From Streptomyces roseoverticillatus (GTDB taxonomy: Bacteria > Actinomycetota > Actinomycetes > Streptomycetales > Streptomycetaceae), in assembly GCF_000719265.1 (NCBI RefSeq), contig NZ_JOFL01000043.1:1-19548 (forward strand): a stretch of DNA of 19,548 bases, written 5' to 3'. The notes below the pieces were generated by a model, which was not told where the DNA came from, did not search any database, and worked only from the letters and a program-made list of their open reading frames with translations. Position numbers and translations under genes: made by a program. Numbering within the stretch: the first letter of the stretch is position 1; each line of letters starts with the position of its first letter. Shown piece after piece: positions 2,236 to 19,303 of this stretch.

Positions 2236-3519
2236 ATGGGGATGCTGAAGGGTGCCAACGTCCGGATTCCGGCGCCGGCGGTGCGGGTGGAGCTGGGCTG
2301 GCGCACGGCCCCCGGGGCGCCGGACGTCGACGCCTCCGCCCTGCTGCTCGCCGGCGGCAGAGTCCGCTCGGACGCGGACTTCGTCTTCTACAACCAGGCC
2401 GCGCACCCCTCGGGCGCGGTCCGCCACGAGGGGAAACGGCCGTCCGGCGCCGGCATGACGACGGACACCCTCGCCGTGGACCTCGCCGCGGTAGAGCCGT
2501 CCGTCGAGACCGTGGTGCTGGCCGCCTCGGCCGACGGCGGGAGCTTCGGGCAGGTGCCGGGGCTGTACATCCGCGTCACCGACGCGGCCGGCGGCGCGGA
2601 GCTCGCGCGCTTCGACAGCACGGACGCCACCGTCGAGACGGCGTTCGTCCTCGGCGAGCTCTACCGCCGCCAGGGCGAGTGGAAGTTCCGGGCGGTGGGC
2701 CAGGGCTACAGCACCGGCCTGGAGGGCCTGGCGACCGACTTCGGCATCTCGGTGGACGAGCCGCAGTCGGTCCCCGCCCCGGCCGCCATACCGGCGCCGC
2801 CCGCCCAGGCGCCCGCCGCACCGCCGGTCGCCCCGCCTCCGCCCGCCGCGCCGCCCGCCGCGCCGCCCGCGCCCCAGCCCGTGCGCCTGACGAAGGTCAC
2901 GCTCACCAAGGAGGCGCCCACCGTCTCGCTCACCAAGCAGGGCGGCACGTCCGGGGCGCTGCGCGTCAACCTCAACTGGGAGGTGCGCAAGTCGTTCAAG
3001 GGCTGGGGCCACAAGTTCGGCAAGGCCATGGCCATGCACTCCGACCTGGACCTCGACCTCGGCTGCCTCTTCGAGCTGCGCGACGGCACCAAGGGCGTGG
3101 TGCAGGCGCTGGGCAACTCCTTCGGCTCCCTGCACCGGCCGCCGTTCATCCACCTCGACGGCGACGACCGCACCGGCGCGGTGGCCGCGGGCGAGAACCT
3201 CACGGTCAACCTGGACCACATCAACGACTTCCGGCGCATCCTCGTCTTCGTAACGATCTACGAGGGCGCCCGGAGCTTCGCCGGCCTGCACGCCACGGTC
3301 ACGATGCAGCCGCAGCACGGCGCGCCCGTCGACTTCTCGCTCGACGAGTGCACCGTGCTCTCCAACGTCTGCGCGCTGGCCCTCATCACCAACAACAACG
3401 GCGACCTCGTCGTCCAGCGCGAGGCCCGCTACTTCGTGCCCGACCGCGGCGTCAGCCCGCAGCGCACCCTCGACCGCGCGTACGGCTGGGGCATGAACTG
3501 GACGCCGGGCCGCAAGTGA
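2236..3519 (+). CDS. TerD-family protein with two stress-protein domains
   Basis: The product (427 aa) starts MGMLKGANV and has an N-terminal TerD domain (about residues 1-175; [17 protein letters not shown] and [13 protein letters not shown] segments are typical of this calcium-binding fold). A Pro/Ala-rich linker follows at about 178-218, then a second TerD/TerA-like domain (about 220-427; [28 protein letters not shown]-like). TerD-family proteins are cytoplasmic and linked to tellurite resistance and general stress; the biochemical activity is unsettled. Acidic clusters such as DLDLDL and DGDDRTG are candidate Ca2+ ligands. ATG 2236 is used because AGGGG (2225-2229) lies 6 nt upstream; ATG 2242 (two codons later, 7 nt after GGAG 2231-2234) is equally plausible. 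No other ter genes are visible, so this looks like a stand-alone two-domain paralogue. Confidence 0.9.
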
Positions 3520-5702: not shown

Positions 5703-6308
5703 ATGAGGGACCATTCCACGGGCCCGCAGGGCCACGAGGGCGACGAGAACACGGGCGCGGCCGGACCCCCTTCCCCGGCCGACGGCGCCGCGGATCTCGC
5801 CGTCTGGACCGGTCGCGCGACCAACCGCGTCCAGTGGCTGCTTGCCGCGGCCGGCGCCGCCTGCCTGGCACTCGGCGTCGAACTGGCCGTCGACAGCGCA
5901 TGGACCTCAGGTCTGGCCCCTCTCGTCATGGCGGTCGTCGGCTGCGTCGCGGCCGGGCTGCTGATGCTCTACGGCACCCTCGCGTTCGTCCATGTGGCCG
6001 TACGGGTCGACATGGAGGCGCTGGAGGTGCGCTGCGGGCACATCGGCGTGCCGCGCACGCGCATCCCGCTGTCCCACGTGGTCGATGCGGACTTCGCCCC
6101 GCGCGTCACGCCGCGCCAGTGGGGCGGCTGGGGCTACCGGTGGCTGCCCGAAAAGGGCACCGCCGTCGTCGTGCGCCGGGGCGAGGGCTTCGTGCTCCGC
6201 CTCGGCGACGGCCGTACGTTCACGGTCACCGTCGACGACGCGGAATCCGCCGTACGGGTGATCCGCCGGGCCCTGCGCCTCGCCCCCGGCCGCAAGGCCC
6301 CGGCCTGA
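5703..6308 (+). CDS. Conserved-type membrane protein, two helices and a C-terminal beta domain, function unknown
   Basis: From ATG 5703 the product is 201 aa. Residues 1-40 are hydrophilic, and two membrane helices follow at about 45-63 and 72-97. The C-terminal domain (about 98-190) alternates hydrophobic and charged residues with the motif QWGGWGYRWLPEKGTAVVVRRGEGFVLRLGDGRTFTV (abridged positions 139-175), which looks like a PH-like beta sandwich. I do not recognise a named family with certainty. The helical hairpin with both ends probably cytoplasmic would put the beta domain in the cytosol. It lies 90 bp after the racemase-like gene and has its own leaderless-type -10, so it is probably transcribed independently. 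Confidence 0.7.
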   Translation: MRDHSTGPQGHEGDENTGAAGPPSPADGAADLAVWTGRATNRVQWLLAAAGAACLALGVELAVDSAWTSGLAPLVMAVVGCVAAGLLMLYGTLAFVHVAVRVDMEALEVRCGHIGVPRTRIPLSHVVDADFAPRVTPRQWGGWGYRWLPEKGTAVVVRRGEGFVLRLGDGRTFTVTVDDAESAVRVIRRALRLAPGRKAPA

Positions 6309-6369
6309 CCTGGGACTTTCTCACCACCCCTGCCGCCACCTGGGTGAACGCCCGGCCCTCCCGGACCAC

Positions 6370-6375
6370 TAGGCT
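6370..6375 (+). promoter_or_regulatory. Candidate -10 element (TAGGCT) for the Nudix gene
   Basis: TAGGCT followed by 7 nt and ATG 6383. There is no ribosome binding site before the ATG, consistent with a leaderless transcript. Confidence 0.5.
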
Positions 6376-6382
6376 CCTGCCC

Positions 6383-6862
6383 ATGCCCACCCCCGATTTC
6401 ATCCGAGTCCTCCGCGCGACCGCGGGCAACCAGCTCCTGTGGATCCCCGGCGTGAGCGCCGTCGTCCTCGACCCCGAGGGCCGCGTGCTGCTCGGCCGCC
6501 GCTCGGACAGCGGCGAGTGGGCGATCATCGGCGGCATCCCCGACCCCGGCGAGCAGCCCGCCTCCGCCATCGTGCGCGAGGTGTACGAGGAGACCGCCGT
6601 CCACTGCGTCGCGGAGCGCGTCCTGGTGGTCGAGGCGCTCGCCCCCGTCACCTACCCCAACGGCGACAAGTGCCAGTACATGGACGTCTGCTTCCTGTGC
6701 CGGGCCGTGGGCGGCGAGGCGCGCGTCAACGACGACGAGTCCCTGGAGGTCGGCTGGTTCGAGCCGGACGCCCTGCCGCCCCTGCAGGAGTTCGCGGTCC
6801 GGCGCATCAAGCACGCCGTGGAGGACGGCGCCACCTGGTTCGAGGGCATCGGGCAAGGCTGA
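6383..6862 (+). CDS. Nudix hydrolase
   Basis: This 159-aa protein is a single Nudix domain. The Nudix box spans residues 51-73 (G51, E57, R65-E66, E69-E70, hydrophobic V73), matching GX5EX7REUXEEXGU except that Ala72 replaces the usual Gly. The Glu residues that bind Mg2+ are intact. Nudix enzymes hydrolyse nucleoside diphosphates linked to another group (nucleotide sugars, NADH, ADP-ribose, oxidised nucleotides). The upstream segment WIPGVSAVVLDPEGRVLLGRR is typical of the ADP-ribose/MutT-like set, but the substrate cannot be read from sequence. It should be cytosolic. The ATG is fixed by the leaderless-type promoter and by the conserved N-terminal strand. Confidence 0.88.
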   Translation: MPTPDFIRVLRATAGNQLLWIPGVSAVVLDPEGRVLLGRRSDSGEWAIIGGIPDPGEQPASAIVREVYEETAVHCVAERVLVVEALAPVTYPNGDKCQYMDVCFLCRAVGGEARVNDDESLEVGWFEPDALPPLQEFAVRRIKHAVEDGATWFEGIGQG

Positions 6863-10928: not shown

Positions 10929-11012
10929 GTGCGCGGCGTGGTACAGGACGGACGGGGCCGGTCCCCGAGAGGCGCACACAGGCCGAGGCATCGCACACGA
11001 GGAGGGCACCCC

Positions 11013-12422
11013 ATGCCCATCGCAACGGTGAACCCCGCGAACGGCGAGACGCTCAGGACGTTCGAGGAACTGGGAGCCGAGGAGATCGAGCGGCGCCTGG
11101 CCGCCGCGGCGTCGGCGTTCCGGGACTACCGCACCACGGACCTCCCCGAACGGGCCCGCCTGCTGAACCGGGCCGCGGATCTGCTGGAGGAGGACCAGGA
11201 GTCCGTCGCCCGCATCATGACCACCGAGATGGGCAAACCGCTGGCCGCCGCTCGCGCGGAGGCGGCCAAGTGCGTCAAGGCCATGCGCTGGTACGCCGCG
11301 CACGCCGCGGAGCTGCTGGCCGACGAGCACCCGCCGCAGACCGAGGTCGCCGACTCCGGGGCCGTCCTCGCCCGCGTCCGCTACCGGCCGCTGGGCGTGG
11401 TCCTGGCCGTCATGCCGTGGAACTTCCCCCTCTGGCAGGTCGTCCGCTTCGCCGCCCCCGCCCTGATGGCGGGCAACGTCGGGCTGCTCAAGCACGCCTC
11501 GAACGTGCCGCAGACCGCGCTCTACCTCGGCGACCTGTTCCGCCGCGCCGGCTTCCCCGAAGGCTGCTTCCAGACGCTGCTCGTCGGCTCGCGGGCCGTC
11601 GAGGGCGTCCTCCGTGACCCCAGGGTCGCCGCGGCGACCCTCACCGGCAGCGAGCCCGCCGGCCGGTCGGTCGCCGCGATCGCCGGCGACGAGGTGAAGA
11701 AGACCGTCCTCGAACTGGGCGGCAGCGACCCGTTCGTGGTGATGCCGTCGGCCGACCTCGAACGCGCCGTGCGGACCGCGGTCACGGCCCGCGTCCAGAA
11801 CAACGGCCAGTCCTGCATCGCCGCCAAGCGCTTCATCGTCCACGCGGACGTCCACGACGCCTTCGTCGAACGGTTCACCGCCCGCATGGCCGGGCTCACC
11901 GTCGGCGACCCCATGGCCGACACCACCGACGTCGGCCCCCTGGCCAGCGAACAGGGCCGCGCCGACCTCGAAGAGCTCGTCGACGACGCCGTCCGGCGGG
12001 GCGCGACGGCCTTGTGCGGCGGACAACGGCCGAAGGACCTGCCGCAGGGCTGGTTCTACGAGCCGACGGTCCTCACCGGCATCACCCCCGACATGCGCAT
12101 CCACCGCGAAGAGGCGTTCGGCCCCGTGGCGACCGTCTACCGCGTAGGGGACGTCGACGAGGCCGTCGAGCTGGCCAACGACACGCCCTTCGGGCTGAGT
12201 TCGAACGTGTGGACCACGGACACGGCGGAACAGGAACGTTTCGCGCGGGACATCGAGGCCGGAGGCGTCTTCTTCAACGGCATGACGGCTTCTCATCCCG
12301 CATTGCCGTTCGGCGGAGTCAAGCGTTCGGGTTACGGACGCGAGCTCTCGGGCCATGGCATCAAGGAATTCTGCAACGTGACAACGGTGTGGCACGGGGC
12401 GGAACCGGCGCGAGGGACGTGA
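11013..12422 (+). CDS. gabD1: NADP-dependent succinate-semialdehyde dehydrogenase (GabD1 type)
   Basis: This 469-aa protein has the full aldehyde dehydrogenase set: VMPWNFPLWQ (cofactor/active-site loop), LKHASNVPQ, GSEPAG, LELGGSDP with Glu234, and NNGQSCIAAKRF with catalytic Cys268, giving the standard 34-residue Glu-Cys spacing. The sequence closely follows Mycobacterium tuberculosis GabD1 as I recall it from the first residues (MPIATxNPAxGET) to the end (FGGVKRSGYGRELS, IKEFCN). The enzyme oxidises succinate semialdehyde to succinate in GABA or alpha-ketoglutarate metabolism, in the cytosol. ATG 11013 is preceded by GGAGG (11001-11005) at 7 nt; the open frame extends 28 codons upstream, but that part is Arg/Gly-rich and not conserved-looking. 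It appears unrelated to the lasso cluster that follows. Confidence 0.93.
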   Translation: MPIATVNPANGETLRTFEELGAEEIERRLAAAASAFRDYRTTDLPERARLLNRAADLLEEDQESVARIMTTEMGKPLAAARAEAAKCVKAMRWYAAHAAELLADEHPPQTEVADSGAVLARVRYRPLGVVLAVMPWNFPLWQVVRFAAPALMAGNVGLLKHASNVPQTALYLGDLFRRAGFPEGCFQTLLVGSRAVEGVLRDPRVAAATLTGSEPAGRSVAAIAGDEVKKTVLELGGSDPFVVMPSADLERAVRTAVTARVQNNGQSCIAAKRFIVHADVHDAFVERFTARMAGLTVGDPMADTTDVGPLASEQGRADLEELVDDAVRRGATALCGGQRPKDLPQGWFYEPTVLTGITPDMRIHREEAFGPVATVYRVGDVDEAVELANDTPFGLSSNVWTTDTAEQERFARDIEAGGVFFNGMTASHPALPFGGVKRSGYGRELSGHGIKEFCNVTTVWHGAEPARGT

Positions 12423-12453
12423 CCTCCCCCCCGAAAGATTAACGATTCTCCTC

Positions 12454-12470
12454 ACGGATTTTTCCGTTTT
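12454..12470 (+). terminator. Weak intrinsic terminator after gabD1
   Basis: ACGGA (12454-12458), loop TTTT, TCCGT (12463-12467), then TTT. The stem is only 5 bp but it is followed by T residues and sits 32 bp after the gabD1 stop. Confidence 0.35.
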
Positions 12471-12484
12471 CGCAGGTGGCGTGA

Positions 12485-12535
12485 GGGGTTGTGTGCCGGG
12501 TGCGGAGCAGAGTGGAGCGCCCCCGGCGCAACCCC
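12485..12535. repeat. Long imperfect inverted repeat upstream of the lasso promoter
   Basis: GGGGTTG (12485-12491) plus GCCGGG (12495-12500) pair with CCCGGC (12522-12527) plus CAACCCC (12529-12535), with a 3-nt/1-nt internal loop and a 21-nt central loop. It could be a second terminator for gabD1 or a regulator site just upstream of the lasso -35. Confidence 0.5.
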
Positions 12536-12553
12536 ATAGGCGTGACTGCGGCG

Positions 12554-12583
12554 TTGTGATGATGCGCTCGTCGTACTTACGGT
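12554..12583 (+). promoter_or_regulatory. Probable promoter of the lasso-peptide operon
   Basis: TTGTGA (12554-12559), an 18-bp spacer, then TACGGT (12578-12583), a fair match to the Streptomyces housekeeping consensus. Transcription would start near 12590 and give a leader of about 100 nt before the precursor gene. Confidence 0.5.
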
Positions 12584-12606
12584 GAGTGCCGCGGATCCAC
12601 CGCTCG

Positions 12607-12624
12607 GATTTCCCTAAGGAAATC
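12607..12624 (+). promoter_or_regulatory. Hairpin in the lasso leader RNA
   Basis: GATTTCC (12607-12613), loop CTAA, GGAAATC (12618-12624): a perfect 7-bp stem about 67 bp before the precursor start. Possible RNA stabiliser or operator. Confidence 0.5.
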
Positions 12625-12638
12625 GATGGAGCCCGCAA

Positions 12639-12650
12639 ACAGGTACCTGT
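12639..12650. promoter_or_regulatory. Perfect 12-bp palindrome ACAGGTACCTGT, candidate operator
   Basis: ACAGGTACCTGT is its own reverse complement. It lies about 50 bp downstream of the inferred transcription start and 41 bp before the precursor ATG, a position from which a bound dimeric repressor could block elongation. No regulator gene is in the cluster. Confidence 0.45.
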
Positions 12651-12690
12651 CGTAGGCAAACATCATCCCCGTCCAAGAAGGAGAATGGTC

Positions 12691-12798
12691 ATGACGTATG
12701 AGCGTCCCACCCTCGCCAAGGCCGGCAGCTTCCGCAAGGTGACGGGCCTCAAGGACCACGGCCCGAAGGACGTCCTGGGCGGCAAGCAGGTTCTCTGA
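12691..12798 (+). CDS. Lasso-peptide precursor (A), predicted core LKDHGPKDVLGGKQVL
   Basis: The 35-residue product fits the actinobacterial lasso precursor pattern. The leader (residues 1-19) contains Y3, P6, L8, G12 and T18-G19, i.e. YxxPxL...G.....TG, where the YxxP region is the B1-binding motif and the Thr is at position -2. The predicted core (residues 20-35) has Leu1 and Asp8, allowing an 8-residue macrolactam and an 8-residue tail, without cysteines (class II). It resembles lagmysin as I recall it, in the pattern L...G..D.LGG...L. My computed monoisotopic mass for the dehydrated core is 1684.96 Da. ATG 12691 has AAGGAG (12678-12683) at 7 nt; ATG 12685 is too close to that site. A longer frame from 12586 is not needed. 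Confidence 0.93.
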   Translation: MTYERPTLAKAGSFRKVTGLKDHGPKDVLGGKQVL

Positions 12799-12804
12799 CC
12801 TGCG

Positions 12805-12836
12805 AGCGGGTGGCGGCCGAAGGGCCGCCACCCGCT
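12805..12836 (+). terminator. Strong hairpin between precursor and cyclase genes (attenuator)
   Basis: A perfect 14-bp stem AGCGGGTGGCGGCC (12805-12818) / GGCCGCCACCCGCT (12823-12836) with loop GAAG, followed by TTCG rather than a T-run. It begins 7 nt after the precursor stop. In RiPP operons such hairpins allow partial termination or protect the precursor mRNA, so precursor exceeds enzymes; that role is inferred here. Confidence 0.75.
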
Positions 12837-12876
12837 TTCGCCGTCCCCGGACATCGCCGACGGAGGGCCGTGCCCC

Positions 12877-14742
12877 ATGGATCAGTCCTTGTCACTCCAG
12901 TCCGTGCCCGCTTGGTTCGTCGTCCTCCCCGACACCGACGCGGCGGGCGCCCTCGCCGCGAGGGCGCTCACCTTCGCCTCCCGCAGCCTGTGCCACGCCT
13001 CGGGACGGCCCTGGATCGTGGGCCGCTGGGACCCGGGGACGGCCGTGACGGGCGCGCACCGGGACACGCGGGTCGTGGTGATCGGGGAGCACGCCGTCAC
13101 ACCGCCCGACGCCGAACGGGCCGCCGCCGCGGTGTCCGGCACCGCTTCGGCGTCCGCCCTGGACCGCCTCGCCGGCCGGCCCGGCACCTTCCACCTGATG
13201 GCCACCGTCGCCGGACGGGTCCGGATCCAGGGCGGTGTCGTCGGGCTGCGGCGCGTCTTCCACGCCGAGGCCACGACGCCCGGCGGCGGACCGGTGAGCG
13301 TGGCGTCCGACCGTGCCGACGTGCTCGCCGAACTGGTGGGCGCCGGACTCGACGAGCGCCGTATCGCCCTCGAAATGCTCGCCTCGGGCGTGCCCTACCC
13401 GTGGCACGGCGGTCCTCTCTGGCGCGGGGTGCACGCCGTGCCCGGCGGCCATCGCCTGACGCTCGACGCCGGCGGCCGGGCCCGCACCACCCGGTGGTGG
13501 TCACCGCCCGACCCCGTCCTCCCGCTCGCCGCGGGCGCCGCGCACCTGAGGGAAGCGCTCACCGAAGCGGTCGCCGTACGCACCCGCGGGCGCGGCCTGG
13601 TGTCGTCCGACCTGGGAGGCCTGGACTCCACAGCGGTGTGCTGCACGGCGGCCCGCGGCGGCGCTGAGGTCGTCGCCTACACCGCCGCCGTCCATGACGA
13701 GGCCGGCGACGACGTGTACTGGGCCGGGCGCACCGTACGGGCGCTGGGCGGCGTCGAGCACCACATCGTCCCGGCCCGCGAGGTGGCCATGACGTTCGAC
13801 GGCATCGACGGCCTGCGGGACATCCTCGACACGCCCAGCATCCTCACCGTCGACCGCCACCGCCGCATGGGCATCATCGAACGGGCCGCGGCCCGCGGAT
13901 CCGGCCTCCACCTCACCGGCCTGGGCGGCGACGAGCTCCTGGCCGGCACGCCCGCCCGGCTGCACACGCTGCTGCTCACCCACCCCTTCGTCGCACTGCA
14001 CGCGATACGCGGGTACGCCGCCAAATACCGCTGGTCCCGGCGGGCGGTGCTGCGCCGGCTCCTGGACCGCAGGTCCTACGACGCCTGGCTCGGCCGCCTC
14101 GCCCGCGACCTCACCGGGCCGCCCGCCCCCGTCGAGGAGCCGCTGCTCGACTGGGCCGTCCCGCCCCGGATGCCGCCGTGGGCCACGCCCGACGCGGTCC
14201 TCGCGGCGCGGGAGCTGCTCCGCGCCCCCCGGACCCCGGCCGGGCCCCGGGGCAGGAACCGCGGCGAACACCGCGAACTGGCCGCGATGGACGGCATCTC
14301 CCAGTGGGTCCGGCACATCGGCCAGATGGCCGCGCCCCTGGCCATCGAGGTCTGCGCGCCCTACTACGACGCCCGCGTCATCGAGGCGGCCCTCGCCGTC
14401 CGCCCGCAGGAGCGGATCACCCCCTGGCGCTACAAGCCGCTCATCGTCGAGGCCATGCGCGGCATCGTGCCCGAAGCCAGCCGCACCCGCAGCACCAAGG
14501 CCAACGCCACGTTCGAGGAGGAGGCGGGACTGCGCCGCCACCGCCGGGCCCTGCTGACGCTGTGCGAGGACTCCCGGCTGGTCCGGCTCGGCCTGGCCGA
14601 CGGGAAGGCGCTGCACGCATGGTGCCGCCGCGCCCTCTCCGCGGAGACGGAGAGCTACCTGCTCCACCCCACCATCGCCTGCGAAGTGTGGCTGCGCTCC
14701 CGGGAGATGACCCCCCTGCCCGCCGCCGACCGGAAGGCGTGA
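12877..14742 (+). CDS. Lasso cyclase (C), asparagine-synthetase-like
   Basis: This 621-aa protein has an N-terminal region related to glutamine amidotransferases but without a catalytic N-terminal Cys (about 1-210; PLWRGVHAVPGGHRLTL), and a C-terminal ATP-pyrophosphatase domain. The PP-loop is SSDLGGLDSTAV (residues 243-254), and TGLGGDELLAG (347-357) is the second active-site segment. Lasso cyclases adenylate the side-chain carboxylate of Asp8/Glu and let the freed N-terminus attack it, forming the ring around the threaded tail; here the acceptor should be core Asp8. The PP-loop lacks the first Ser of the usual SGGxDS (it reads LGGLDS). ATG 12877 follows GGAGGG (12862-12867) at 9 nt. It sits between the precursor and B1, 4 bp before the B1 start. 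Confidence 0.92.
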   Translation: MDQSLSLQSVPAWFVVLPDTDAAGALAARALTFASRSLCHASGRPWIVGRWDPGTAVTGAHRDTRVVVIGEHAVTPPDAERAAAAVSGTASASALDRLAGRPGTFHLMATVAGRVRIQGGVVGLRRVFHAEATTPGGGPVSVASDRADVLAELVGAGLDERRIALEMLASGVPYPWHGGPLWRGVHAVPGGHRLTLDAGGRARTTRWWSPPDPVLPLAAGAAHLREALTEAVAVRTRGRGLVSSDLGGLDSTAVCCTAARGGAEVVAYTAAVHDEAGDDVYWAGRTVRALGGVEHHIVPAREVAMTFDGIDGLRDILDTPSILTVDRHRRMGIIERAAARGSGLHLTGLGGDELLAGTPARLHTLLLTHPFVALHAIRGYAAKYRWSRRAVLRRLLDRRSYDAWLGRLARDLTGPPAPVEEPLLDWAVPPRMPPWATPDAVLAARELLRAPRTPAGPRGRNRGEHRELAAMDGISQWVRHIGQMAAPLAIEVCAPYYDARVIEAALAVRPQERITPWRYKPLIVEAMRGIVPEASRTRSTKANATFEEEAGLRRHRRALLTLCEDSRLVRLGLADGKALHAWCRRALSAETESYLLHPTIACEVWLRSREMTPLPAADRKA

Positions 14743-14746
14743 AACC

Positions 14747-15004
14747 GTGCCCGCACTCAAGCCCGGCGTCCTGATGACCGAGACCGAGTACGGCATCGCG
14801 CTGCTCGACCAGGAGAGCGCCGAATACTGGACGCTCAACCCGACGGCCGCCCTCGTCCTGCGGACGCTGCTGGACGGACACGGCCCCGGACGGGCGGCCG
14901 AGATCCTGACGGCCCGGTACGACGGCGCCGAAGCCGGCGAGGTCGGCGAGGACGTCCGCCGCATCATCGACGAGCTGCGCTCGGCAGGACTGCTCACTCC
15001 GTAG
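14747..15004 (+). CDS. PqqD-like RiPP recognition element (B1)
   Basis: The 85-aa protein has the size and pattern of stand-alone PqqD/RRE proteins of lasso clusters: an N-terminal beta hairpin (PGVLMTETEYGIALLDQESAEYWTL, positions 7-31) followed by three helices (NPTAALVLRTLLDG, AAEILTARYDG, VGEDVRRIIDELRSAGLL). It binds the YxxP leader motif of the precursor and delivers it to B2. The start is GTG 14747, 4 bp after the cyclase stop, with GGAAGG (14732-14737) at 9 nt inside the cyclase gene, so translational coupling is likely. Cytosolic partner of B2 and the leader. Confidence 0.92.
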   Translation: MPALKPGVLMTETEYGIALLDQESAEYWTLNPTAALVLRTLLDGHGPGRAAEILTARYDGAEAGEVGEDVRRIIDELRSAGLLTP

Positions 15005-15064
15005 GACGCCCTGCCGCCCGGTGGCCGTCCGCCGGACCTCGTTCCCCGACCGTAGAGGCACGCC

Positions 15065-15481
15065 ATGTCGACACCGGAAGCGATCCCCTACCAGCCCCGC
15101 TCGATCCCCCTGGGCCGCCGCTGCGTGGCACGGCTGGCCGTGGGCTGCGCCCACCTGCTGGCCACCCAGCCCCCTGCCCGGATCCGCGCCGTCCTGTGCA
15201 GGCTGCGGCGCGGCGCCCGGCCCGCCACGCTCGCCGAGGCGAGCACGGCACGGCGCACGGTCCTCGCCGTGAGCCTCGCCGCCGGAGGCCACAAGGGGTG
15301 TCTGCCGCGCTCCCTGGCCACCGTGCTGCTCTGCCGCTGGTACGGCCACTGGCCCACCTGGTGCGTCGGCGTGCGCAGCCGCCCGCCGTTCGCCGCGCAC
15401 GCCTGGGTGGAGGCCGAAGGCGTCCTCGTCGGCGAAGGCGCCCCGGCCGACTACTTCCAGCGCTTCTTCACCGTGGAGTGA
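15065..15481 (+). CDS. Lasso leader peptidase (B2), transglutaminase-like
   Basis: This 138-aa protein fits the short B2 cysteine proteases of the transglutaminase-like fold. The catalytic Cys79 is in GHKGCLPRSLA and His112 is in FAAHAWVEAEG; the supporting acid in this segment is probably Glu118, where many relatives have Asp (HAWVEVDG). The N-terminal half (residues 18-70) is helical, as usual for the family. It removes the leader after Thr-Gly, probably when the leader is bound to B1. ATG 15065 is preceded by AGAGG (15054-15058) at 6 nt and lies 60 bp after the B1 stop. The next gene starts 4 bp after its stop. Confidence 0.9.
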   Translation: MSTPEAIPYQPRSIPLGRRCVARLAVGCAHLLATQPPARIRAVLCRLRRGARPATLAEASTARRTVLAVSLAAGGHKGCLPRSLATVLLCRWYGHWPTWCVGVRSRPPFAAHAWVEAEGVLVGEGAPADYFQRFFTVE

Positions 15482-15485
15482 GCCC

Positions 15486-17306
15486 ATGACCGCGCCGCCC
15501 TCCGTAGAGACTCCCCGGACCGGCCCTCCCGCCCCCGCGCGGGCCGGCGCGCGGGAGGGCCCGGGCCGGTCGTGGCCGGGGCAGCGGGCTCTGCTGGACC
15601 ACCTGCGCCCGCAGAAGTGGCGCATGGCCGCGGGCGTCGCCCTGGGGCTCACCGGCAGCGTCATGGGCCTGGCCCAGCCCTTGGCGGCCAAGCGCGTGAT
15701 GGACGACATGGGCCGGGGGGCGCCGGCCGCCGGCCCCGTTCTGCTGCTCAGCCTGCTGGTCGTGGCCGGAGCGGTCCTCGCGGGCCTCGGGCACTACGTG
15801 CTGCAGTGGTCAGCCGAATCCGTCGTCTGCACCGCCAGGTGCAGGCTGGCCGACCGCCTCCTGCGGCTGCGCGTGCCCGTCGTGGAGGGCTCCGAACCGG
15901 GCGACCTGATATCCCGGGTGACGTCCGACACGACTCTGCTGCGCCAGACCGCGCCCCAGGCGGTGTCGGCGGCGGTCACCGGCACCCTGGTCACCGCGGC
16001 GACGGTCGTCATGATGGGGCTGCTCGACGCCGTGCTGCTGGGCGTCACCCTCGGCGTGATCGCCTTCGCCGGGGTCGTCGTCGCGGTCGTGGCCCCGCGG
16101 ATCGGTCGCGCCACGCACGGCACGCAGGAGGCGGTGGGTCGTATCGGGGCGGCGCTGGAGCGGGTGATGGGCGCCTTCCGCACCGTCAAGGCGTCGGGCG
16201 CCGAGCGGCACGAGGCGGCTGCGCTGGCCGGGGCGGCCGAACGCGCCCGGCGCACCGGGGTACGGGCCGCGGCCTGGGAGGCCGTGTCAGCGACGACGTC
16301 GGCGGTGATCATCCAGGTCAGCTTCCTCGTGGTGCTCGGTGTGGGGGGCGCGCGCGTCACCTCCGGCGCGACGGAGGTCTCCACGCTCGTCGCCTTCCTG
16401 CTCTACCTCTTCGCCCTCGCCCCGCGCATCGGGCAACTGGTCGAAGGCGTCGGCCAGGTCCAGGTGGGGGCCGCCGCCGCGGTCCGCATCGCACAGGCCG
16501 AAGAGCTGGAGACGGAGGAGCTGGAGACGGAGGAGCTGGAGAGCAACGAGGGGGCAGAAGTCAGGCGTGTGCCCCTCAGCGTGTCGTTCGACCGGGTGAG
16601 CTTCGCGTACCGGCCCGGGCTGCCCCGCGTCCACCACCAGGTCTCCTTCACCGTGCCCGCGCGCGGCCTGACCGCGTTCGTGGGCCCGTCCGGCGCGGGC
16701 AAGACCACGGTCTTCTCCCTGATCGAGCGCTTCTACGAACAGGATTCCGGCCGCGTGCTCCTGGGCGGCGAGGACGTACGGCAGTGGCCGCTGGCCCGGC
16801 TCCGCGCGTCCATCGGCTACGTGGAGCAGGACGTTCCCGTCCTCGCCGGCACCCTGCGGGACAACCTGACGCTCGGCACTCCCGACCCCGGCGCCGCGGA
16901 ACTCGCCCGCGTCCTGCGGCTGGCCCGCCTGGACCTGCTCGCGGACCGCCTGCCGGACGGCTTGGACACCGACGTCGGCCACCGCGGCAGCCGCCTCTCC
17001 GGCGGCGAGCGGCAACGCGTGGCGATCGCCCGCGCCCTGCTCCGCCGTCCCGGCCTGCTCCTGCTGGACGAGGTCACGTCCCAGCTCGACGCCGCCAACG
17101 AGGCGGCGCTGCGCGACACCATCACCGACACCGCTCGCCACACCACCGTCCTGGTGGTCGCCCACCGGCTCTCCACCGTGACCACGGCGGACCGGATCGT
17201 GGTCATGCAGGCGGGACGCGTACGGGCGGCCGGCACCCATGCCGAGCTGCTGGCGCGCGACGCGCTCTACCGTGACCTGGCGAGCACACAGCTGCTCGGC
17301 CCGTAG
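15486..17306 (+). CDS. Lasso cluster ABC exporter (D), fused TMD-NBD half transporter
   Basis: This 606-aa protein has a Pro/Ala-rich N-terminus (about 1-35), a six-helix type-1 exporter membrane domain (about 45-335), a Glu-rich linker with a tandem repeat (about 339-355), and a nucleotide-binding domain: Walker A GPSGAGKTT (K406), Q-loop YVEQDV, signature LSGGERQ (from L504), Walker B LLLLDE (D528, E529), H-loop H560. All catalytic residues are present, so a homodimer would be active. It should export the mature lasso peptide and confer self-immunity; no C39 peptidase domain is present, as expected with B2 doing the cleavage. GGAG (15475-15478) lies 7 nt before ATG 15486, inside the B2 3' end. 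Confidence 0.92.
   Translation: MTAPPSVETPRTGPPAPARAGAREGPGRSWPGQRALLDHLRPQKWRMAAGVALGLTGSVMGLAQPLAAKRVMDDMGRGAPAAGPVLLLSLLVVAGAVLAGLGHYVLQWSAESVVCTARCRLADRLLRLRVPVVEGSEPGDLISRVTSDTTLLRQTAPQAVSAAVTGTLVTAATVVMMGLLDAVLLGVTLGVIAFAGVVVAVVAPRIGRATHGTQEAVGRIGAALERVMGAFRTVKASGAERHEAAALAGAAERARRTGVRAAAWEAVSATTSAVIIQVSFLVVLGVGGARVTSGATEVSTLVAFLLYLFALAPRIGQLVEGVGQVQVGAAAAVRIAQAEELETEELETEELESNEGAEVRRVPLSVSFDRVSFAYRPGLPRVHHQVSFTVPARGLTAFVGPSGAGKTTVFSLIERFYEQDSGRVLLGGEDVRQWPLARLRASIGYVEQDVPVLAGTLRDNLTLGTPDPGAAELARVLRLARLDLLADRLPDGLDTDVGHRGSRLSGGERQRVAIARALLRRPGLLLLDEVTSQLDAANEAALRDTITDTARHTTVLVVAHRLSTVTTADRIVVMQAGRVRAAGTHAELLARDALYRDLASTQLLGP
16503..16541 (+). repeat. In-frame 15-bp tandem repeat in the exporter linker (2.6 copies)
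   Basis: GAGCTGGAGACGGAG occurs twice perfectly (16503-16517, 16518-16532) and partly a third time (16533-16541), encoding ELETE ELETE ELE. It lies in the linker between membrane and ATPase domains of the D transporter. Identical copies indicate a recent expansion. Confidence 0.9.
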
Positions 17307-17410: not shown

Positions 17411-19303
17411 ATGAGCATGGAAGTCACGGCGTGGACATCGCTGCACAGCGCGATGAACGCCGAACAGGGCCGGCGGCCCCTCTCACGGGCCACCGTGCGC
17501 CGCATCGCCGCGTTCGCGCGGCCGCACCGGCGGAAGCTGGGGCAGTTCCTGCTGCTGAGCGTGGTCATGGCGCTGCTCGCGGTGGCGACGCCGATCCTGG
17601 CCGGACGCGTCGTCGAGGGGATCGTGCACGGCGACGACACCGGGACCGTCGTCCGGCTCGCCCTGCTCATCGCGGTGCTCGCCGTCGCGGAGGCGGGCCT
17701 GGGGCTGCTGACCCGCTGGCTGTCGGCGACCCTCGGCGAGGGCCTCATCCTCGACCTGCGGACCGCGGTCTTCGACCACGTGCAGCGGATGCCGGTCGCC
17801 TTCTTCACCCGCACCCGCACCGGCGCACTCGTCAGCCGCCTGAACAACGACGTGATCGGCGCCCAGCGGGCCTTCAGCAACACCCTGTCCGGCGTCGCCT
17901 CCAACATCGTCACTCTCGTCCTGACGCTCGGCGTGATGCTCAGCATCTCCTGGCAGATCACGCTGCTCGCGCTCGTCCTGCTGCCGGTATTCGTCGTGCC
18001 CGCCCGCCGGATGGGCGCGCGCATGGCCGGGCTGCAGCGCGAGGCGGCCGCGCACAACGCCGCGATGAGCAGCCGGATGACCGAGCGGTTCTCCGCGCCG
18101 GGCGCCACCCTCGTCAAGCTGTTCGGCCGGCCCGCGGACGAGTCCACCGAGTTCGCGGCCCGCGCCCGCGCGGTGCGGGACATCGGCGTCCGCACCGCCA
18201 TGGCGCAGTCGGCGTTCATCACGGCCCTCACTCTCGTCTCCGCGCTGGCCCTGGCCCTCGTCTACGGCCTCGGCGGCTTCTACGCGCTGCACGGCCGGCT
18301 GGAGCCGGGAGCCGTCGTCGCGCTCGCCCTCCTCCTCACCCGCCTCTACGCCCCGCTCACCGCGCTGGCCGGCGCCCGTGTCGAGGTGATGAGCGCCCTC
18401 GTCAGCTTCGAGCGCGTCTTCGAGGTCCTCGACCTCGAACCGCTGATCGCCGAGAAGCCGGGCGCACGGAAGGTGCCGGACGGGCCGGTCTCCGTCGAGT
18501 TCGACGGCGTACGGTTCGGCTACCCGTCCGCCGACAAGGTCTCCCTCGCCTCCCTGGAGGAGGTCGCCGGCCTGGACACCCGCGGCGGCGCCGAGGTCCT
18601 GCACGGAGTCTCCTTCCGCGCCGAACCCGGCCGCATGGTCGCCCTCGTGGGCTCCTCCGGCGCGGGGAAGTCCACCATCGCCCAGCTGCTGCCGCGGCTG
18701 TACGACGCCGACGCCGGAACCGTACGCCTCGGCGGCGTCGACGTGCGCGACCTGAGCGCCGACTCCATCCGCGAGACGCTCGGCATGGTCACCCAGGACG
18801 GGCACCTCTTCCACGACACGGTCCGCGCCAACCTCCTCATCGCCCGGCCGGACGCCGCCGAGGACGAGGTCTGGGACGCGCTGCGGCGCTCCCGCCTGGA
18901 CGGCCTGGTGGCCGCCCTGCCCGACGGGCTGGACACGGTCGTCGGCGAGCGCGGCTACCGGCTCTCCGGCGGCGAGCGGCAGCGGCTGACCATCGCCCGC
19001 CTGCTGCTGGCCCGCCAGCGCGTCGTCATCCTGGACGAGGCGACCGCCCACCTCGACTCGACCTCCGAAGCCGCCGTCCAGGAGGCGCTGGCCGAAGCCC
19101 TGGAGGGCCGCACGGCCGTGGTGATCGCCCACCGGCTGTCCACGGTGCGCGCCGCCGACCTCATCCTCGTCGTCGAGGACGGCCGGGTCGTCGAACGCGG
19201 CACCCACAGCGAGCTGCTGGCCGCAGGAGGACGCTACGAGGAGCTGCACCGCACGCAGTTCGCCCGCGTGAAGGCGGACGGGGAGGCGGAGCCCGTCGGC
19301 TGA
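17411..19303 (+). CDS. Second ABC exporter, fused TMD-NBD half transporter
   Basis: This 630-aa protein has a short N-terminal tail, a six-helix type-1 membrane domain (about 45-330; the coupling segment LRTAVFDHVQRMPVAFF is clear) and an ATPase domain: Walker A GSSGAGKST (K420), signature LSGGERQ (from L518), Walker B VVILDE (D542, E543), H-loop H574. All motifs are intact, so it can work as a homodimer. Such exporters move drugs, lipids or peptides. An insertion of about 20 residues (SADKVSLASLEEVAGLDTRG) sits before Walker A in the NBD strand region, common in this actinobacterial group. ATG 17411 follows GAGGAG (17399-17404) at 6 nt. It has its own MerR-type promoter, 104 bp after the lasso exporter, so it is probably separate from the lasso operon. 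Confidence 0.9.
   Translation: MSMEVTAWTSLHSAMNAEQGRRPLSRATVRRIAAFARPHRRKLGQFLLLSVVMALLAVATPILAGRVVEGIVHGDDTGTVVRLALLIAVLAVAEAGLGLLTRWLSATLGEGLILDLRTAVFDHVQRMPVAFFTRTRTGALVSRLNNDVIGAQRAFSNTLSGVASNIVTLVLTLGVMLSISWQITLLALVLLPVFVVPARRMGARMAGLQREAAAHNAAMSSRMTERFSAPGATLVKLFGRPADESTEFAARARAVRDIGVRTAMAQSAFITALTLVSALALALVYGLGGFYALHGRLEPGAVVALALLLTRLYAPLTALAGARVEVMSALVSFERVFEVLDLEPLIAEKPGARKVPDGPVSVEFDGVRFGYPSADKVSLASLEEVAGLDTRGGAEVLHGVSFRAEPGRMVALVGSSGAGKSTIAQLLPRLYDADAGTVRLGGVDVRDLSADSIRETLGMVTQDGHLFHDTVRANLLIARPDAAEDEVWDALRRSRLDGLVAALPDGLDTVVGERGYRLSGGERQRLTIARLLLARQRVVILDEATAHLDSTSEAAVQEALAEALEGRTAVVIAHRLSTVRAADLILVVEDGRVVERGTHSELLAAGGRYEELHRTQFARVKADGEAEPVG

Follow-up and report, generated by a model that had tools for sequence, protein, structure and literature searches.

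A lagmysin-group lasso peptide gene cluster with a shortened cyclase PP-loop in Streptomyces roseoverticillatus

The lasso peptide gene cluster

The window, i.e. the whole 19,548-nucleotide contig NZ_JOFL01000043.1 of the 7.2-Mb assembly of Streptomyces roseoverticillatus, contains at 12691-17306 a complete lasso-peptide cluster, in which the genes for a precursor (A), a cyclase (C), B1, B2 and an ABC exporter (D) form one tight plus-strand operon (Table 1). As a gene set it is ordinary, and it adds a new member to the lagmysin group. The ATP-binding PP-loop of its cyclase is one residue short. A five-function operon had been proposed in a first-pass annotation made from the letters of the sequence, and on the basis of open reading frames (ORFs) and family models all five genes were present in the claimed order and strand; the proposed span of 12554-17306 held a real cluster and started too early, positions 12554-12690 being upstream DNA. 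The closest-cyclase search gave 20 loci, 16 of them close (L004-L019), and because 15 of these 16 have this five-gene set in identical order, with a precursor resembling that of the window, a chance origin of the cluster is excluded. In the remaining locus, L016, the contig stops 145 bases short of C, and a precursor there would be unseen. The nearest relatives in the cyclase and homologue searches were from S. hiroshimensis, S. huiliensis and S. roseoverticillatus.

Table 1. Position, strand and basis of the features assigned to the cluster.
Feature	Position	Strand	Basis and remarks
Ribosome-binding site AAGGAG	12678..12683	+	7 nt 5' of ATG 12691; read from the sequence
Precursor gene A, 35 aa	12691..12798	+	Leader 12691-12747, core 12748-12795 (LKDHGPKDVLGGKQVL), stop 12796-12798; family models, relatives
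Hairpin, 13-bp perfect stem, 4-nt loop, no T-run	12806..12835	+	3' of the precursor stop, in the A-C intergenic stretch
Cyclase C, asparagine-synthetase fold, 621 aa	12877..14742	+	Pfam PF00733; AlphaFold2 (AF2) model, pLDDT 92
Shortened PP-loop DLGGLDST, residues 245-252	13609..13632	+	Alignments, AF2 models; other lasso-type cyclases examined mostly DLSGG[LM]DST
B1, PqqD-like leader-recognition protein, 85 aa	14747..15004	+	lasso_PqqD_Strm, PF05402, alignment
B2, transglutaminase-like leader peptidase, 138 aa	15065..15481	+	lasso_biosyn_B2, PF13471, alignment
D, ABC exporter, 606 aa	15486..17306	+	PF00664 and PF00005; same place in L004-L019

The precursor passed the models NCBIfam lasso_leader_L3 (26.2 bits, cut-off 19) and Pfam DUF5972 (49.8, cut-off 22.6), B1 scored above the cut-off of lasso_PqqD_Strm (100.8 against 70), and B2 above that of lasso_biosyn_B2 (115.7 against 33), with B2 residues Cys79 and His112 unchanged across 10 aligned sequences. 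The cyclase passed Pfam Asn_synthase (129, cut-off 21), and the combination typical of a lasso cluster (asparagine-synthetase-like cyclase, B1, transglutaminase-like B2) was present, C being recognised through Pfam only. The start of the precursor gene was placed at ATG 12691 rather than at the in-frame ATG 12685 because of the AAGGAG site 7 nt upstream of 12691; the alternative start is possible, but it nearly overlaps that site.

The precursor protein consists of the leader MTYERPTLAKAGSFRKVTG followed by the 16-residue core LKDHGPKDVLGGKQVL. Its leader part YERPTLAKAGSFRKVTG matches the pattern YxxPxLxxxGxxxxxTx (PMC6856326), Tyr occupying position -17 and Thr position -2. Both positions are described in PMC10368454, where -17 may be the alignment numbering of that paper, and leaders usually have Thr as their penultimate residue (PMC10368454, PMC11420955). 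The Asp8 of the core lies within the range of core positions 7-9 given for the acceptor Asp or Glu (PMC8498205, PMC4979651), and the ring is very probably Leu1-Asp8, in agreement with the first-pass prediction. For a lasso peptide with the core LKDHGPKDVLGGKQVL an [M+H]+ of 1685.970 was calculated, and the masses suggested earlier (1685.97, and 843.49 for [M+2H]2+) were correct on recalculation. The window core represents a mass-predicted target in many Streptomyces.

The shortened PP-loop of the cyclase

Asparagine-synthetase-type enzymes bind ATP by a PP-loop with the motif SGGxDS. In the window cyclase, the loop reads DLGGLDS against the full DLSGGLDS, which is one residue fewer, and the canonical Ser-Gly-Gly-x-Asp-Ser is absent. 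This feature had been overlooked in the first-pass annotation, whose assignments of a lasso cluster with export gene, a Leu1-Asp8 ring and lagmysin kinship otherwise held. At the alignment column between Leu246 and Gly247, all 220 clade rows had a gap and all 90 rows of other lasso-type cyclases had Ser. The short rows comprise 216 of 217 homologues (the shortened protein P0019 being left out), the window cyclase and L043-L045, of which L045 is the same as P0121 and is counted twice. The full rows comprise 79 control loci, L020-L023 and L046-L052, excluding L002, the own-genome paralogue with DLSGDLDS, in which Ser is kept. The control rows were by hand count the stronger 79 of 120 cyclase rows listed without a locus in the same genome sample, and the loop was full in all of these best 79 of 120. 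Homologues were taken from the best 120 of 619 and the best 120 of 822 matches, and among those listed 217/217 were short, 207 with DLGG (P0019 included) and 10 with DLSG. A short-loop cyclase occurred in at least 23 of the 392 genomes of the genus sample, the window's genome included; this is a lower bound, with three candidates scored per genome.

That the gap might be an alignment choice, the loop having kept its length with Gly in place of Ser, is suggested by the cyclases of L043-L045, which keep Ser (DL-SGLDS) and for which two alignments place the gap in different columns, so that its exact position is not unique. However, only four residues stand between the Asp columns 245 and 250 in the window enzyme and in L043-L045, one fewer than in all 90 full rows, and in the AF2 models (mean pLDDT 92.0 for the window, 91.4 for L046) the strand-to-helix loop has three residues (246-248) in the window enzyme against four (228-231) in the citrulassin-type L046. 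Substitution at constant length is on these counts improbable, and a true shortening of the loop is preferred.

On a quick tree of 48 rows (45 different; L002, L006 and L016 left out), built without the motif columns, the difference between short and full loops requires one change and the three motif states two, and on this tree the shortening appears to have a single origin. Because L043-L045, the earliest branch of the clade, keep Ser, one residue was probably lost first and Ser replaced by Gly afterwards. Two loci, L035 and L036, carry the exact lagmysin core, beside DLGGVDS cyclases within the same cyclase clade as the window (30-row branch of the quick tree, SH-aLRT 100), and the window core agrees with the lagmysin group in its 16 residues, Leu1, Asp8 and an LGG tail ending in Leu.

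The residues D245, D250, S251, G350, D352, K520, R538 and K541 were kept in both the short and the full group. The position of Thr286 was Thr in 100% of short rows and Ala in 92% of full rows, and the Pro after residue 290 was absent in 204 of 220 short rows. The shortened loop could in principle have left the whole clade inactive in ATP use, with linear or otherwise modified peptides as products, since what is lost is a motif Ser that 90/90 other lasso-type cyclase rows retain. Such an inactive clade is nevertheless very unlikely in view of its size (217/217 homologues listed short), the other conserved residues kept, the leader and core tail, in which silent codon differences outnumber amino-acid changes, and lagmysin, whose exact core stands beside cyclases with this loop and which a table in PMC12427821 gives, with its sequence, as a class II lasso peptide. 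The lagmysin core used in the first-pass annotation matches that table, and the recount of 7/16 positions common to the two cores agrees with it. Because cyclases beside exact lagmysin cores share the short loop and lagmysin is so listed, the short loop is presumably active. A description of this PP-loop change was not found in the literature searched, which was covered in part. Mutation of this Ser in McjC reportedly abolishes activity, though a literature search did not confirm it.

Some cyclase genes showed irregularities. In L006 of S. hiroshimensis the reading frame is disrupted close to the start of the gene, near 6001-6207, and the database protein P0019 has 513 aa; the motif is present, as is the remainder of the cluster. 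An otherwise short-loop cyclase in L033 has one in-frame stop codon. The window's own genome carries a second, distant cyclase-like gene (L148, C31 6964-8952, minus strand) with the PP-loop DLSGDLDS, and just ahead of this loop a 6-base array of 10.7 copies is read as an Ile-Gly run. NCBIfam scans of the four ORFs neighbouring L148 gave no lasso B1 or B2, and L148 is possibly decayed or phase-variable.

Core conservation, ring size and the intergenic hairpin

Nearly the same core was found in 19 other distinct loci, with the family pattern [LIV]K[DN]xGPKDxLGG[KR]QxL, and the exact window core in no other locus; the nearest cores, in L004, L005, L006 and L019, differ by one residue. The suggestion of a possible new lagmysin-group member was borne out with one qualification: the cyclase belongs to the lagmysin clade, and the novelty is not an isolated one, given 19 loci with near-identical cores. 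Core strings and family-pattern strings were not found in the literature searched, which takes in few subscription journals.

Codon conservation was compared among 22 equal-length loci of this GPKD family, representing 19 distinct coding sequences, with L014 (length) and L016 (contig ends before the gene) left out. The core positions K2, G5, P6, K7, D8, L10, G11, G12, Q14 and L16 were invariant, seven of these ten using more than one codon, and position 1 was always Ile, Leu or Val. Per codon comparison, silent differences exceeded amino-acid-changing ones in the leader (0.224 vs 0.093) and in the core tail (0.160 vs 0.122). The constancy of core positions across species suggests a fixed target or receptor.

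Loci were counted as distinct because some were found twice from two sources (L008/L026, L015/L029, L018/L027). Among the 35 distinct precursor-bearing clade loci, cleavage after Thr-Gly places the acceptor at core position 8 in 31 (Asp in 27, Glu in 4) and elsewhere in four. In L014 it is at position 7. L043, L044 and L045 have Tyr at -17 and a single acceptor Asp, at position 10 in the first two, which are near-identical, and at position 11 in L045. If cleavage did not follow Thr-Gly, the core and ring would differ from LKDHGPKDVLGGKQVL and Leu1-Asp8. This reading could draw on L014, where the core is one residue shorter (KHTGPKDILGGKQLL) and either VTG/KHTGPKD gives a 7-residue ring or VT/GKHTGPKD, cut after Thr, gives Gly1-Asp8, and on L039-L042, where the leader is one shorter (Tyr at -16) and the register is thus not rigid in the clade. 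It is made highly improbable by Thr at -2, by the acceptor at position 8 in 31/35 loci and by citrulassin N, the core of which is carried by L049 with the same leader length as the window; that core begins at Leu1 after TG and the ring is Leu1-Asp8. A cut after Thr-Gly is retained for the window precursor.

A tentative and rather unlikely idea is that shortening of the PP-loop freed or shifted the active site and allowed other ring sizes; the clade cores predict mostly 8-residue rings, with 7 residues in L014, 10 in L043 and L044, and 11 in L045. Ring sizes of 7-9 are given in the literature (PMC4979651, PMC8498205, PMC10368454), and rings over 9 are called too loose in one review. The larger rings are treated as a lead only, because L039-L042 show a one-residue shift of register and a deeper cut could restore an 8- or 9-residue ring; the idea rests on three loci, of which L043 and L044 are near copies. 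No new early-branch loci came from searches of 199 and 362 genomes, the shown matches of the latter being already in the 392-genome sample, and a plasmid search with an early-branch cyclase gave only 39%-identical cyclases. If true, the 10- and 11-residue rings would break the accepted size limit and supply enzymes for such rings. Separately, NZ_CP108267.1 (85076-86851) and three similar Streptomyces plasmid records (256-260 kb) encode a cyclase related to asparagine synthase, possibly a lasso cyclase, that shares 39% identity with the L045 enzyme.

The hairpin downstream of the window precursor gene had a calculated stability of -32.6 kcal/mol, and 0/40 shuffles were as stable. At this place, the best 30-nt hairpin beat all 40 dinucleotide shuffles in 26 of 40 distinct loci, all 26 belonging to the 35 clade loci; the exact duplicate stretches L026, L027 and L029, and L016 without a precursor, were skipped. 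The clade hairpins often differ in stem sequence (GGGTGGCGGC, GGGTGGTGGC, GCGGGCGGCG). Because a terminator-like T-run was not found at 12806-12835, partial termination or protection of the messenger RNA (mRNA) is favoured, and the hairpin probably serves to adjust the ratio of precursor to enzymes or to shield the precursor transcript. A sigma-70-like promoter was not found in 12423-12900, and an Rfam scan of the window gave no matches at the gathering score.

Two neighbouring genes were rejected as cluster members. The ALDH gene (10929-12422) and a second ABC transporter gene (17411-19303) adjoin the cluster only in L004 and L006 among L004-L019; L005 keeps just a 38-residue ALDH piece, and neither gene was found in L007-L019, where the flanks of L007 and L016 are partly unseen at contig ends. 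A plasmid-borne cluster was likewise rejected, as megablast of 12691-17306 matched no plasmid record. Upstream of the cluster and outside it, the window encodes DUF6777 (643-2070), TerD-domain (2236-3519) and NUDIX-domain (5834-6862) proteins.

Proposed biosynthesis and relation to known systems

The product of the locus is very likely an exported class II lasso peptide of the lagmysin clade, with C active despite a PP-loop one residue short. In the proposed pathway, B1 would bind the YERPTL leader and B2 would cut after Thr-Gly, whereupon C would adenylate Asp8 with ATP and close Leu1-Asp8 around the tail VLGGKQVL, and D would export the 16-residue product. In C, the phosphate-binding turn L-G-G-L-D-S would replace S-G-G-L-D-S, and the phosphates may be held by backbone amides of the shorter turn together with the kept Asp250, Ser251 and Lys520.

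Several points weigh against this interpretation. With two narrower NCBI cyclase models, C scores below the cut-off (230.6 against 300; 59.7 against 525), and the role of its loop is argued from distant folds, since a sequence search of C against PDB gave no match and no lasso cyclase structure exists according to PMC13352647 and PMC11420955. The Tyr(-17) register is off by one in L039-L042. The ring residues of the core show more amino-acid-changing than silent differences (0.229 against 0.192 per codon comparison) because positions 1, 3 and 4 vary. The tree came from a quick search and has long outgroup branches, and its outgroup could not be split off at a single branch. The hairpin is no general feature: in 14/40 loci, 9 of the clade and all 5 citrulassin-type ones, one or more of the 40 shuffles was as stable (failing loci include L018, L033, L034, L039-L042, L044 and L045). 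Lagmysin was reportedly isolated (Tietz 2017).

Lasso cyclases determine which lasso peptides can be made, and a large natural clade without a motif residue that is present in 90/90 other rows suggests that this residue is dispensable. The lagmysin-type and citrulassin-type cyclases form matched pairs bearing on how ATP is held. Most noteworthy for specialists would be the shortening of the cyclase ATP loop, with its apparent single origin, and the possible large rings in the early branch.

Among solved structures, the folds nearest to the C model in Foldseek were TsnB9, beta-lactam synthetase, carbapenam synthetase and AsnB, which have the same overall fold at 12-16% identity and carry an SGGxDS loop. 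These synthetase folds activate carboxylates with ATP. The citrulassin clusters (L046, L048-L051) share with the window the leader shape, Leu1, Asp8 and split B1/B2, and differ in their full PP-loop DLSGGLDS, a cyclase 43-44% identical, and Arg9, which is citrullinated. Closer is the lagmysin cluster (L035, L036), with the order A-C-B1-B2, the leader spacing, Leu1, Asp8, the 16-residue core, the LGG tail ending in Leu and DLGG[LV]DS in common, whereas 9/16 core positions differ and the cyclase is about 56% identical; D is next in L035 only, and L036 ends soon after B2. A S. rimosus cluster has been labelled 'Lagmysin (80)' by automatic similarity (PMC13098539, in passages that describe no product of it), and it is presumably of the present cluster type, because VKNTGPKDVLGGKQLL is the core encoded at the S. 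rimosus locus L015. This locus differs from the window in that core, and shares with it the core pattern, the gene order and the short loop.

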